Shown here one piece after another: positions 1,751-44,682 of a stretch of 64,000 nucleotides of DNA. How positions within the stretch are numbered: the stretch's first letter is position 1; each line of letters begins with the position of its first letter. A program made the position numbers and the translations under genes. The notes beneath the pieces are model-generated. The model had not been told where the DNA came from. It saw only the letters and a list, made by a program, of their open reading frames with translations, and did no database searches. Source of the DNA: an uncultured Bacteroidia bacterium (GTDB taxonomy: Bacteria > Bacteroidota > Bacteroidia > Bacteroidales > F082); the NCBI GenBank assembly GCA_902770835.1, contig CACXUM010000003.1, positions 50,069 through 114,068 on the forward strand, given 5' to 3'.

Positions 1751-2778
1751 GAGAAATCGGAAGTGAGTTTTGGCTGGAGAGAGAGTCTAAGACGCTTTCT
1801 TGCAATAGGGACGGCATCTATGTCCTCTCTGGGAGAACGGCAATTGATTTGATAATTCAAGACATCCTCAAAACGAGGAAGATTCGGAATGTCTATATGC
1901 CTGCCTGGTGTTGTGACTCGATGCTTGCACCGTTCGTGGCACACGGCACACAGATAAAGTTTTATGATATTTGTCACACAGAAAGCACGGAAAGCACAGA
2001 AATTATTTGTCACACAGATGGCACAGATTACACAGATGTTTTCTATGTGACCAATTACTTTGGTTACGAGAATGCGCTACCAATAGAAACGGTAAAAAAG
2101 TTTAAGGAACAAGGTGCAACTATCCTTTATGATAGGACGCATTCGTTTTTGATGGAAAATGACCCATATTTGGCTTTGGATGACTATAGTTTTGCTAGTA
2201 TACGCAAGTGGATGGGGGTGATTGGTGGTGCTGTGGTGAAGGGTGTGCATGATTGTAATTTAATGCCATATCCTTTCCTCGCTTGCAAAGAGGAGGCCAT
2301 GCGGGTGAAGAAAGCCTTCATCGAAGGTGACACGAGCATCGACAAGCAAGACTTCTTGAACCTATATTCTGAGTTTGGGCATCATTTGGCTGAGGATTAC
2401 CAAAATTATGAGATGGATGATTTGTCGTATGCCATATTTAAGACAGAAGACCTGTCGGCCATACGCCTCAAACGTAGAGAGAACGCACATTTTCTGCACG
2501 AGAACCTTCAAGGTGTAAAGTTTATTGGTGAATTAACTGAAAACGTTGTACCTCTTTTTGTACCTGTCTTCTTCGAGACCACCGAGCAACGCAATGCCGT
2601 CCGAAAGAAGCTGATAGAAGCACAAATCTATTGCCCCATCCATTGGCCGAAGCCCGAGCTGATTCCAGCTGATTTTGAAGCCAACAAGATATACGACACT
2701 GAACTCTCGCTGATATGTGACCAGAGATATGACCTCACCGATATGGAACGGATGGTCACACTGATAAATAGTATTTAA
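1747..2778 (+). CDS. PLP-dependent aminotransferase-fold protein with an in-frame repeat insertion
   Basis: A 343-residue fold-type-I PLP-enzyme-like protein. YVLSGRTAIDLIIQDI near residue 25 matches the cofactor-phosphate region, ILYDRTHSF carries the expected Asp, and Lys154 in SIRKWMG is the likely Schiff-base lysine. Such proteins occur in polysaccharide loci and may aminate a keto-sugar; the substrate is unknown. Residues 76-98 are odd: they read as repeats of Cys-His-Thr plus Glu/Ser/Thr and Asp/Thr and are encoded by DNA matching the repeat downstream of this gene, so a mobile repeat appears to have inserted in frame. The start overlaps the preceding stop by 4 bp. Activity with the insert is uncertain. 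Confidence 0.72.
   Translation: MREIGSEFWLERESKTLSCNRDGIYVLSGRTAIDLIIQDILKTRKIRNVYMPAWCCDSMLAPFVAHGTQIKFYDICHTESTESTEIICHTDGTDYTDVFYVTNYFGYENALPIETVKKFKEQGATILYDRTHSFLMENDPYLALDDYSFASIRKWMGVIGGAVVKGVHDCNLMPYPFLACKEEAMRVKKAFIEGDTSIDKQDFLNLYSEFGHHLAEDYQNYEMDDLSYAIFKTEDLSAIRLKRRENAHFLHENLQGVKFIGELTENVVPLFVPVFFETTEQRNAVRKKLIEAQIYCPIHWPKPELIPADFEANKIYDTELSLICDQRYDLTDMERMVTLINSI
1972..2040 (+). repeat. CACACAGAAAGCACGGAAA-type repeat inside a coding sequence
   Basis: The first 31 bases match positions 2780-2810 at 29 of 31 places by eye. A second, related arm (CACACAGATGGCACAGATTA) starts at 2011. The 23 codons stay in frame and add the Cys-His-Thr-rich stretch to the aminotransferase. Confidence 0.8.
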
Positions 2779-2779
2779 A

Positions 2780-2890
2780 TGTCACACAGAAAGCTCGGAA
2801 AGCACGGAAAGACTTGCCTTCGGCAAGGGGCTGACGCATAATGGCGCTGTTACTAAATATAATTCAGTGAGTTCAGTGATTTCTGTGTGA
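2780..2890 (+). repeat. Palindromic repeat element upstream of the GxxExxY gene
   Basis: The left arm (2780-2810) starts TGTCACACAGAAAGCTCGG. The right arm (2863-2890) ends TGATTTCTGTGTGA and is an imperfect inverted copy, with a period of about 9-10 bp within each arm. A small hairpin, CTTGCC-TTCG-GGCAAG-like, lies at 2813-2828 between the arms. The element begins one base after the aminotransferase stop and ends 10 bp before the next ATG. Confidence 0.8.
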
Positions 2891-2900
2891 AAACAAAATA

Positions 2901-3272
2901 ATGACAGACAACGAGATTACATACGAGATTCGTGGAGCCATCTATGATGTATATAAAGACCTTGGCCCTGGTTTATTAGAGTCTGTCTATGAGGAAGCTC
3001 TGTGTTTTGAGTTGGAACAACGAGGTTTGGAAGTGGAACGACAGGTTCAGGTACCCATTATATACAAAGGTAATGTATTGAAAACAGAGCTGCGACTTGA
3101 CATCATTGTAGAAGATAAAGTTATAGTTGAACTTAAATCGGTCGAGGAGATGAAGAAAGTATTTGCAAAACAACTTCTCACATATCTTCGGCTAATGGAT
3201 AAGAGGGTGGGAATTCTTGTGAATTTCAACACCGACGACATCCTCAAATCCATGCAACGCATAGTTAATTAA
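2901..3272 (+). CDS. GxxExxY protein (PD-(D/E)XK-like, function unknown)
   Basis: A 123-residue protein with the family signature exactly placed: Gly24-x-x-Glu27-x-x-Tyr30 within GPGLLESVYEEAL. Further on, LRLDIIV followed by VIVELKS resembles the Asp and Glu-x-Lys of PD-(D/E)XK nuclease folds. The family is recognised by its motif; its role is not established to my knowledge, so nuclease activity is only a structural inference. It interrupts an otherwise continuous glycan operon and is bracketed by two copies of a palindromic repeat whose core is TTTCTGTGTGA, which suggests that gene and repeats moved as a unit. The start is the first ATG after the repeat. No partner gene is visible. Confidence 0.88.
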   Translation: MTDNEITYEIRGAIYDVYKDLGPGLLESVYEEALCFELEQRGLEVERQVQVPIIYKGNVLKTELRLDIIVEDKVIVELKSVEEMKKVFAKQLLTYLRLMDKRVGILVNFNTDDILKSMQRIVN

Positions 3273-3273
3273 A

Positions 3274-3366
3274 GACACTTAGAAAAACTGGAAGACACAA
3301 AATAAAGACTGCGATAGCCGCGCCAAAGGCGCAATTTTCTGTGATTTCCGTGATTTCTGTGTGAAA
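3274..3366 (+). repeat. Palindromic repeat element downstream of the GxxExxY gene
   Basis: The right arm (3338-3364) contains TGATTTCCGTGATTTCTGTG and matches the arm at 2863-2890. The left arm (3274-3300) is a degenerate inverted copy. A GCGCC-AAA-GGCGC hairpin sits between them at 3320-3332. The element starts just after the GxxExxY stop codon. Confidence 0.75.
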
Positions 3367-20805: not shown

Positions 20806-22122
20806 ATGCCAAAAAACAGAATCTACCTCTGCCTAGCTCACATGAGCGAGGCTGGACTTGAACAGAAGTATATCCAAGAGGCTTTCGACACCAACTGGGT
20901 GGTGCCGCTCGGTCCGAATGTGAATGGGTTTGAAAAAGACCTCGAAGAATTTGTCGGAGAGAACAAGCGTGTAGTCGCCCTTTCAAGCGGCACTGCCGCC
21001 GTACATTTGTCCCTGATTGCCTGCGGTGTGCAGCCTGGCGATGAGGTCATCGTGCAATCGTTTACTTTCTGCGCTTCTTCGCACCCGATTACTTATCTCG
21101 GTGCGACGCCCATCTTCGTCGATTCCGAGAAAGACTCTTGGAACATCGACCCAGAACTAATGGAAGAGGCCATCAAAGACCGCATTGCCAAAACGGGCAA
21201 GAAACCGATGGCCATCGTGCCTGTGGCACTTTACGGTATGCCTTACGACATCGACCGCATCATGGAAATTGCCAACCGCTACGACATCCCCGTCATCGAG
21301 GATGCGGCCGAGGGCTTCGGTAGCCGCTGGAAAGGGCAGGTGCTGGGCACTTTCGGCCAGTACGGTGTGCTGTCATTCAACGGCAACAAGATGATCACCA
21401 CCTCGGGCGGCGGCGCGTTGATTACACCCAACGAGGACGCTTGGCGCGAGATTATGATGTACGCCACGCAATACCGCGAGAGTTATCCCTATTACCAGCA
21501 CGAGAAAATCGGCTTCAACTACCGAATGTCGAACATTTGTGCTGGAATCGGGCGCGGCCAAATGACGGTCGCCAACGACCACATCGCGCACCACAAGCAC
21601 GTCTTTGAACTCTATAAGGAATTGCTGAAAGACGAGAAAGGCATTGAGGTGCATGGCAACCCCGATGAGCGTTACGACAGCAATTTCTGGCTGAACACCA
21701 TTACCATCGCCCCTGAAATCCGCATCAAGGGACAGGAGAATGCTTACAAAACCGTGGTTAAAGGTGCTGTTGGAGGTGCGGCTGGTGTCATCCACGTGGC
21801 GGAATCGGCCACCACGGATTGCCAACCCAACGACAATGTGGAAGCCATGCGCGTCTATCTTGACGAGCGCGGCATCGAGGCGCGCCCGCTGTGGAAGCCC
21901 ATGCACAAGCAGCCTGTTTATCAAAGAGTTGAAAGTTCAGAGTTGAGAGTTGAGAGTTTGTCTGACGGCATTGTTTGTCAGACTTCAGACATGAGCGTTG
22001 CTTATATCAACGGTGTTTCGGAGGAACTTTTCAAAATCGGAATGTGTTTGCCGAGCGGTCCTTACGTTTCGGACGAGGATGTGAAATACATTGTGGACTG
22101 CATTAAAGAGGCAATCGAGTAG
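20806..22122 (+). CDS. DegT/DnrJ/EryC1/StrS-family aminotransferase with in-frame insert
   Basis: 438 residues of a PLP-dependent sugar aminotransferase. SSGTAAVHLSL holds the phosphate-binding part, IPVIEDAAEGFGS carries the cofactor Asp, and Lys195 in SFNGNKMITTSGGGAL forms the internal aldimine. RPLWKPMHKQPVYQ and LFKIGMCLPSGP are conserved late motifs. It probably aminates a 4-keto sugar nucleotide for the polysaccharide. Between those late motifs, about residues 375-395 (RVESSELRVE and following) look foreign and are encoded by low-complexity repeat DNA, making the protein longer than family norm. It precedes the Wza-like gene, from which it is separated by a terminator and a promoter. 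Confidence 0.9.
   Translation: MPKNRIYLCLAHMSEAGLEQKYIQEAFDTNWVVPLGPNVNGFEKDLEEFVGENKRVVALSSGTAAVHLSLIACGVQPGDEVIVQSFTFCASSHPITYLGATPIFVDSEKDSWNIDPELMEEAIKDRIAKTGKKPMAIVPVALYGMPYDIDRIMEIANRYDIPVIEDAAEGFGSRWKGQVLGTFGQYGVLSFNGNKMITTSGGGALITPNEDAWREIMMYATQYRESYPYYQHEKIGFNYRMSNICAGIGRGQMTVANDHIAHHKHVFELYKELLKDEKGIEVHGNPDERYDSNFWLNTITIAPEIRIKGQENAYKTVVKGAVGGAAGVIHVAESATTDCQPNDNVEAMRVYLDERGIEARPLWKPMHKQPVYQRVESSELRVESLSDGIVCQTSDMSVAYINGVSEELFKIGMCLPSGPYVSDEDVKYIVDCIKEAIE
21926..21990 (+). repeat. GAGTTGAGAGTT-type repeat plus hairpin inside the aminotransferase gene
   Basis: Tandem units of the form AGAGTTGAAAGTTCAGAGTT run from 21926 to about 21958. They are followed by a perfect 7-bp inverted pair, GTCTGAC (21960-21966) and GTCAGAC (21977-21983). 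The whole stretch is in frame and interrupts the otherwise conserved C-terminal region. Confidence 0.75.
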
Positions 22123-44657: not shown

Positions 44658-44682
44658 AATATTAAGATTTAATAACCATTTA

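Follow-up and report, generated by a model that had tools for sequence, protein, structure and literature searches.

Why should a small nuclease-like gene lie between two palindromic repeats of similar build, and do the gene and the repeats belong together? The question is raised by a locus in a 64-kb stretch of DNA (hereafter the window; C3:50069-114068 of the 3.26-Mb assembly G000, 86% complete). The original prediction described it as a small mobile or selfish unit that interrupts what was termed a glycan operon and whose protein recognises the repeat. The gene, located at 2901..3272 on the + strand, encodes a protein of 123 aa that matches TIGR04256 GxxExxY with 148.2 bits (cut-off 35) and PF13366 PDDEXK_3 with 144.4 bits (cut-off 22), no other profile match being found. 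This PD-(D/E)XK nuclease gene has the gene of an ATP-grasp protein as its next neighbour.

The gene is indeed enclosed by palindromic elements, at 2782..2890 and 3277-3364. The upstream element is complete: a left arm of three units at exact 9-bp spacing, TCACACAGAAA GCTCGGAAA GCACGGAAA (2782..2810, + strand), a subterminal hairpin CTTGCC-TTC-GGCAAG (2813..2827), and a right arm of inverted 9-bp units ending in TTTCTGTGTGA (2863..2890, - strand). Downstream, the subterminal hairpin GCGCCAAAGGCGC, i.e., GCGCC-AAA-GGCGC (3320..3332), and a clean right arm TTTTCTGTGATTTCCGTGATTTCTGTGTGA (3335..3364, - strand) are preceded by a left arm that is weak and could be read only by eye (about 3277..3299, + strand). 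This arm is badly degenerate, and hence the claim of the same design on both sides holds in full upstream and only partly downstream. The arm period, originally given as about 9–10 bp, is 9 bp. Both hairpins are paired in the RNA fold.

Compared with the inverted downstream region, the upstream region yields a score of 25, against a maximum of 15 among 598 random windows. Four of the five period-9 arrays in the window are located within 1976-3361 (mean 0.0 in 10 mono-shuffles). With at most one mismatch, TCACACAGAAA has seven matches in the window versus 1.67 expected, a number reached in 0/100 shuffles. Five of the seven exact copies in the 3.26-Mb genome fall within one 4.1-kb stretch containing the gene (0 for the reversed control), and three of these five are the bracketing arms themselves. 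A gene-less array of the same family, CHTESTESTEIICHTDGTDYTD at 1974..2050, was overlooked in the original prediction; it lies in frame within the ORF 1747-2778. In the G025 homologue the array is a single 9-bp unit shorter, and the G078 homologue has no such array. Just outside the window, at C3:49320 (L012), another window-family arm array lies within a sugar aminotransferase gene, where, by comparison with the aminotransferase 5u1z, it adds 15 residues in frame (GHTENTESTENVRLM).

Ten residues are invariant in 48 aligned GxxExxY proteins (E27, Y30, D67, E77, K79, Q91, Y95, L106, N108, and F109). Among them, D67, E77, and K79 make up an intact PD-(D/E)XK site, with E77-x-K79 followed by Q91xxxY95, a QxxxY motif that we take to be RecB-like. 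The AF2 model (pLDDT 96.2, pTM 0.88) has as its nearest folds 4ic1 SSO0001 (E 3.8e-4), presumably a Cas4, and lambda exonuclease (E 1.4e-3), with tRNA-splicing endonucleases among the weak matches; a sequence search of the PDB gave no significant match (best E 0.46). Cas4 proteins feature the four cysteines of an Fe-S cluster, and no invariant or nearly invariant cysteine is present in the 48 aligned proteins. An excerpt of one study mentions a gene annotated cas4 by one program and GxxExxY by another (PMC8934634). The genes are under purifying selection, with a median dN/dS of 0.032 (88 pairs; quartiles 0.021-0.058, maximum 0.65), which is indicative of a working, kept enzyme; one shared site, site 4, is an exception (0.385, three pairs). 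GxxExxY proteins are widespread, and the literature searched yielded no function for them.

A GxxExxY match is present in 73 of the 99 genomes of the genus, G000 included, and exceeds the cut-off in 72. The three genes above the cut-off in G000 (in the window, on C60, and on C11) each lie between arms of like build and different sequence, with the units TCACACAGAAA, CACGCAGAATCCGCAGAAATCGCAGAA, and AACTACGGATT, respectively. The right end of the C11 element is doubled, AATCCGTAGTT being followed by AATCCGTGGTT. The GxxExxY gene on C60 is directly followed, in the region C60:1528-1878 (L001), by a unit with a CACGCAGAATCCGCAGAAATCGCAGAA arm that occurs as three tandem copies.

From 122 ORF matches, we retained 101 GxxExxY loci with 450-bp flanks, dropping duplicates and loci with shorter flanks. 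As controls, 342 genes from the same regions were used, 329 of them clean; the comparison with four-helix-bundle genes (see below) used all 342. The arm test is blind to the sequence of the arms: it scores any pentamer that recurs at a constant distance upstream and whose inverse recurs downstream. Matched arms at exactly 9 bp were found for 41 of the 101 GxxExxY loci and for 1 of the 329 clean controls (Fisher 3e-28), which is the enrichment of repeats near these genes that the original prediction had called for. The same arms were seen in 3/342 of all controls, 0/101 shuffles, and 39/400 cross-locus pairs. Spacings of 5-7, 11-13, and 14-16 bp yielded 0, 2, and 2 of the 101 GxxExxY loci and 4, 0, and 4 of the 329 controls. 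The median inverted-arm score is 22 for GxxExxY loci versus 11 for controls, and 88/101 loci score at least 16.

Relatives with the gene and without the repeats, named at the outset as evidence against the proposal, are not the general case and are confined to 13 of the 101 loci, which have weak or no arms (L028, L031, L038, L106, L119 with two genes, L132, L137, L138, L146, L148, L155, L162; score <16). At L028, from a subfamily without clear 9-bp arms, the GxxExxY gene is followed by a long run of tandem units of about 26 bp each (AACTCGTGCAACCCGTGTCAAAAAA). Element ends vary by family: CTGTGTGA in the window, CGCCG etc. in others, and a GTAG foot only in the AACTAC..GTAGTT families. In several elements of the idi type, described below, the right-end hairpin encodes the last residues and the stop codon of the GxxExxY protein. 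A 16-of-18 lag test was dropped as too strict (20/101 GxxExxY loci and 10/342 controls at lag 9); at lag 7 it selected 31/342 controls versus 5/101 GxxExxY loci, and these controls may be four-helix-bundle elements.

The 101 loci comprise 15 shared syntenic sites, with up to 21 loci per site, and 18 singletons. Arms could be compared for 88 loci, and core types were labeled for 87. Arm similarity correlates with protein identity when the site is allowed for (partial r 0.549; 0/2000 permutations), versus -0.019 for the site when the protein is allowed for. Pairs from different sites with proteins at least 70% identical have a mean arm score of 16.2 (83 pairs), compared with 7.9 for pairs from the same site with proteins less than 55% identical (26 pairs) and a background of 7.1 (3036 pairs). 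Mapped on the protein tree, the core type switches 20 times; 200 label shuffles give 56.7 switches on average and never fewer than 50. More than one core type occurs at the shared sites 0, 3, 4, 5, and 12. Hence, the arm type tracks the protein rather than the site, and the protein and its ends travel as one unit, with shared ancestry only partly removed by these tests. The link between protein and repeat, originally offered as a conjecture, is thus well supported by the co-divergence of arms and proteins over the 101 loci.

Many copies of the ends occur without the gene. A 24-base pattern of three units (CNRATTNNNCNRATTNNNCNRATT), scanned over the 99 genomes, gave 537 matches, versus 43 for the reversed pattern; it detects only some families, and the copy counts are therefore lower bounds. 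Among the 29 matches in G000 are 17 separate elements without a gene whose ends, AACTAC[AG]GATT..AATC[CT]GTAGTT or close variants (AACTACGAATT in L205; one base shorter in L216), correspond to those of the C11 GxxExxY element. Nine of them are 144-175 bp long, seven 62-87 bp, and one 111 bp; by eye, the 144-175 bp form has retained both subterminal hairpins and lacks the ORF, and the 62-87 bp form consists of arms only. None of the 17 is located inside a predicted ORF, and in 13 a flanking boundary is a stop codon, 10 bp away or less in 10 cases. Within size classes the copies are 62-81% identical and hence old. A further gene-less family of G000, AACGGCGAATT, is found at C2:2648-7628 and elsewhere (L193-L196, L201, L208). 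Its cognate GxxExxY gene was not found in this assembly, which, being only 86% complete, makes missing cognate genes prove little; GxxExxY genes with AACGGCGAATT-type ends are present in G065 and G014.

Genomes with GxxExxY have on average 7.1 pattern matches, versus 0.73 in genomes without it (p 2e-7), but the excess is gone (p 0.77) once four matches per GxxExxY gene are subtracted, which is the cruder correction. Matches away from the gene were counted in the first 42 genomes by excluding, by eye and among the matches listed, those less than 1 kb from a gene, with G041 partly covered and some G018 and G020 genes left out. The result is 161 matches in 24 genomes with GxxExxY versus 14 in 18 without (means 6.7 and 0.78; p 4e-4; kinship of genomes ignored). 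The approximately 100% complete genome G029 has 11 pattern matches and only a sub-cut-off GxxExxY match; when it is recounted as gene-less, the numbers become 150 in 23 versus 25 in 19 genomes (means 6.5 and 1.3; p 0.0017). G029 and the AACGGCGAATT family of G000 are exceptions to the association of repeats with the gene, and so are two more genomes. In G025, whose assembly is 86-87% complete, like G000, eight pattern matches and no GxxExxY gene were found, and the repeats of G041, among the matches listed, are mostly of a type other than that of its single GxxExxY gene.

Syntenic loci without the unit, for which the original prediction had suggested a search, do exist. At the window site, the flanking genes of G078 overlap with nothing in between, and G025, with a neighbour protein 96% identical, has a single gene-less element with the core CACAGAT. 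At the idi site (the YchF-idi junction), 57 loci from 88 genomes with a match were examined. An insert of 552-687 bp is present at 26 of them, in each case containing a GxxExxY ORF; another 26 are empty, with a gap of -1 to 13 bp (a stop-start overlap in 19). Inserts of 31-73 bp without a gene occur at four loci, and one locus was unparsed. Two 73-bp inserts that were read are a bare CGGCGAATT palindrome.

Junctions of four gene-less loci of G000 (L199, L200, L210, and L213) were compared with those of 12 relatives. G069 has an empty L200 site (GTGATTATGCG), and in G000 the element at this site has ATTAT on both flanks, a possible 5-bp target duplication, judged from sequence and seen at one of the four loci. 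At L199, a long CGAAT element in G059 and G020 corresponds to a short CGGAT element in G000 and four other genomes, and for both L210 and L213 there are relatives with an empty site. By eye, the target junctions at the four loci have no obvious common sequence. No recent transposition was seen among the G000 copies, given their low identity. Mobility can therefore be upheld on the evolutionary scale, where it is supported by copies without the gene, by empty sites, and by turnover at the sites, but not as an active process, with copies this diverged and a target duplication at one locus at best. The description as selfish is doubtful, as a dN/dS of about 0.03 and sites shared by up to 21 loci look like a kept, working gene.

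Inspection by eye reveals the same build in named records from Pedobacter, Chryseobacterium, Ignavibacteriales, and Desulfobacterales. From 80 matches, 32 distant loci were picked (named records, lower identity), of which 31 were used after L304, too near the contig end, had been dropped; for some of them, the position outside the genus is not certain. Spacings of 8-10 bp were found in 10/31 of these loci versus 0/49 control windows, and the median inverted-arm score is 23 versus 12; the scores of four loci (L296, L306, L309, and L313) do not exceed those of controls. With 4-mers, a spacing of exactly 9 bp is seen in 1/31 and of 8-10 bp in 6/31, i.e., the exact 9-bp spacing is looser outside the genus. 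Spread of GxxExxY by phages was considered and set aside: one scan of a viral collection, with a single degenerate peptide pattern and accordingly of low reach, yielded four relatives.

A second protein family of the genus has arms of its own. Four-helix-bundle genes (TIGR02436; L366 also matches PF05635 23S_rRNA_IVP) are present in 96/99 genomes, and 24/30 loci from the genus (L352-L381) and 27/30 from the phylum (L382-L411) were used, the rest being too short. Inverted arms at a spacing of 7 bp were found for 23/24 four-helix-bundle genes of the genus, 0/101 GxxExxY loci, and 3/342 controls; at 9 bp, the same test gave 0/24, 45/101, and 2/342. In the phylum-wide set the signal is weaker, with 7/27 loci at 7 bp, 1/27 at 8, and 1/27 at 9. 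Relative to 1o61, a DegT-type aminotransferase of the window (20806-22122) contains about 24 extra residues inserted in frame (374-397, QRVESSELRVESLSDGIV..). The insertion (~21924-21998) holds an array of 7-bp units and looks like a gene-less element of the four-helix-bundle type within an ORF. More arrays with a 7-bp period adjoin gene boundaries at window positions 44682 and 56657 and possibly belong to the same class.

We propose, with a probability of about 0.6, a partnership like that of REPINs and RAYTs, in which the enzyme is a nuclease similar to Cas4 and lambda exonuclease instead of an HUH transposase. The element would have two parts: this small PD-(D/E)XK nuclease and its cognate ends, in which a subterminal hairpin accompanies terminal inverted arms built of about three units of 9 bp. 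We consider it most likely that these units are bound by their own protein, probably as a folded single strand or a cruciform, and that the protein cuts or trims there. Copies of the element would occasionally be made or moved to fresh sites and would persist mainly at gene junctions, and gene-less derivatives with like ends would be served in trans by the same protein. Action of the protein on the repeats, from binding to cutting and copying, is what we infer; the bracketing, the 9-bp spacing, the co-divergence of arms and protein, the gene-less derivatives, the empty sites, the invariant catalytic residues, and the purifying selection are what we observe.

The main rival, which we regard as unlikely, is a role at the RNA level: the arms would be a processing, stabilising, or terminating hairpin in a polycistronic mRNA, regulated or clipped by the protein as a repeat-specific RNase, and their dispersal would be ancient and passive. 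The location of the G000 elements at gene junctions fits such a role, as do the tRNA-splicing endonucleases among the weak fold matches and the strong strand folds of the upstream window element (single-strand RNA fold, z -3.05) and of the solo element at the idi site of G014 (z -4.66). However, the best fold neighbours are DNA exonucleases, and the fold of the downstream window element is less marked (z -2.08). A fold of L214:1480-1580, which covers its element only in part, is uninformative (z -0.57). By itself, a role in RNA also leaves unexplained why gene-less copies share the ends of one GxxExxY element at unrelated sites and why element types at one site differ across genomes. A still less likely possibility is that the co-divergence is a by-product. 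Inverted and tandem repeats homogenise in concert, units within single elements are alike by eye, and the palindromes and tandem units could have been homogenised by template switching or slippage, with the protein and arms merely co-inherited within the element. Yet neutral homogenisation would neither maintain a unit length specific to each protein family (9 or 7 bp) nor yield the observed difference between GxxExxY loci and controls (41/101 versus 1/329), and joint descent of protein and arms as a unit would still make an element.

Transposition by another enzyme, e.g., a RAYT-like Y1/HUH transposase that moves MITEs or REPs between which GxxExxY genes are caught as passengers, seems improbable to us. 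Y1_Tnp genes are present in 70/99 genomes, their number correlates with that of the repeats (0.51), and one group of families has REP-like GTAG ends (AACTAC..GTAGTT). When GxxExxY number and genome size are controlled for, the correlation for Y1 drops to 0.17, whereas that for GxxExxY is still 0.46 after control for Y1 transposases and genome size, which makes a plain passenger unlikely; besides, a passenger would hardly co-diverge with the arms or own a family-specific unit length. We give least credit to homing or a restriction-like mechanism, where the nuclease would cut unoccupied junctions, repair from an occupied copy would spread the element, and the arms would shield the occupied site. 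Reuse of junctions, with several core types at five shared sites, and the coexistence of gene-containing, empty, and gene-less states at the idi site are in line with it. On the other hand, the ends match the protein while the target junctions lack an obvious shared sequence, and gene-less copies at many unrelated junctions are a poor fit to allele-specific homing.

The proposed partnership between nuclease and repeats resembles RAYT/REPIN in several respects. Excerpts of PMC8049555 describe a vertically kept enzyme gene, palindromic repeats, and more repeats in gene-bearing genomes, and those of PMC3733652 describe RAYT genes flanked by repeats or long TIRs, with REPs of 20-40 bp that have a GTAG foot. 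GxxExxY genes, too, are vertically kept, as seen from the shared sites and the dN/dS, although some sites are multi-type; they lie between repeats, and dispersed palindromes are more numerous where they are present (by the away-from-gene count, not by the cruder subtraction). In contrast, RAYTs are HUH/Y1 tyrosine transposases and GxxExxY proteins are PD-(D/E)XK nucleases, and the arms here are long, made up of 9-bp units, and varied in their termini, unlike the short REPs of these excerpts. By both the HUH enzyme and the GTAG foot, the GxxExxY system is therefore outside RAYT/REPIN, though it would work like one.

Terminal inverted repeats, gene-less derivatives of 62-175 bp of a gene-bearing element, ends common to the 17 gene-less copies and the gene-bearing C11 copy of G000, and the location of all 17 outside predicted ORFs are reminiscent of MITEs; the differences are the arms of short periodic units and the absence, in the elements studied, of a recognised transposase and an established target duplication. 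Rickettsia palindromic elements, which the same excerpts of PMC3733652 assign to CGTC-type repeats without a dedicated transposase, share the occurrence of palindromic arrays in frame in ORFs (as at 1974-2050 and C3:49320), but here a nuclease gene bears the same ends. As in excerpts of PMC4990558 on 23S rRNA intervening sequences and S23 proteins, a small ORF lies in a small element, and it is the four-helix-bundle genes of the genus that have arms of 7-bp units. GxxExxY has an unrelated nuclease fold and a 9-bp unit, and its window and idi elements, at both sites, are located between protein genes and not in rRNA. Finally, the nearest folds and the QxxxY motif relate GxxExxY to RecB-type nucleases such as Cas4 and lambda exonuclease, from which it differs by its shorter length (about 120 aa) and the lack of an invariant cysteine; no cas family was found among the three neighbouring window genes scanned.

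The literature searched, with most subscription journals and bioRxiv outside its coverage, yielded no report of repeat-flanked GxxExxY genes. More tentatively, and with somewhat less than even confidence, we suggest that the GxxExxY elements represent a wide class in which unrelated small proteins each have their own palindromic arrays of a set unit length (9 bp for GxxExxY, 7 bp for the four-helix-bundle/23S-IVS/S23 proteins), read by the protein and slowly copied around the genome without any HUH or DDE transposase. If the proposed partnership is true, a nuclease-based class would join the few known partnerships of enzymes and repeats and would account for many intergenic palindromes with a 9-bp period. 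It would also bear on a long-standing puzzle, that of the proteins of 23S rRNA intervening sequences, whose relatives here are bracketed by 7-bp units. From its matched arms, a specific substrate can be predicted for every GxxExxY protein, and the function of this family thus becomes directly testable.
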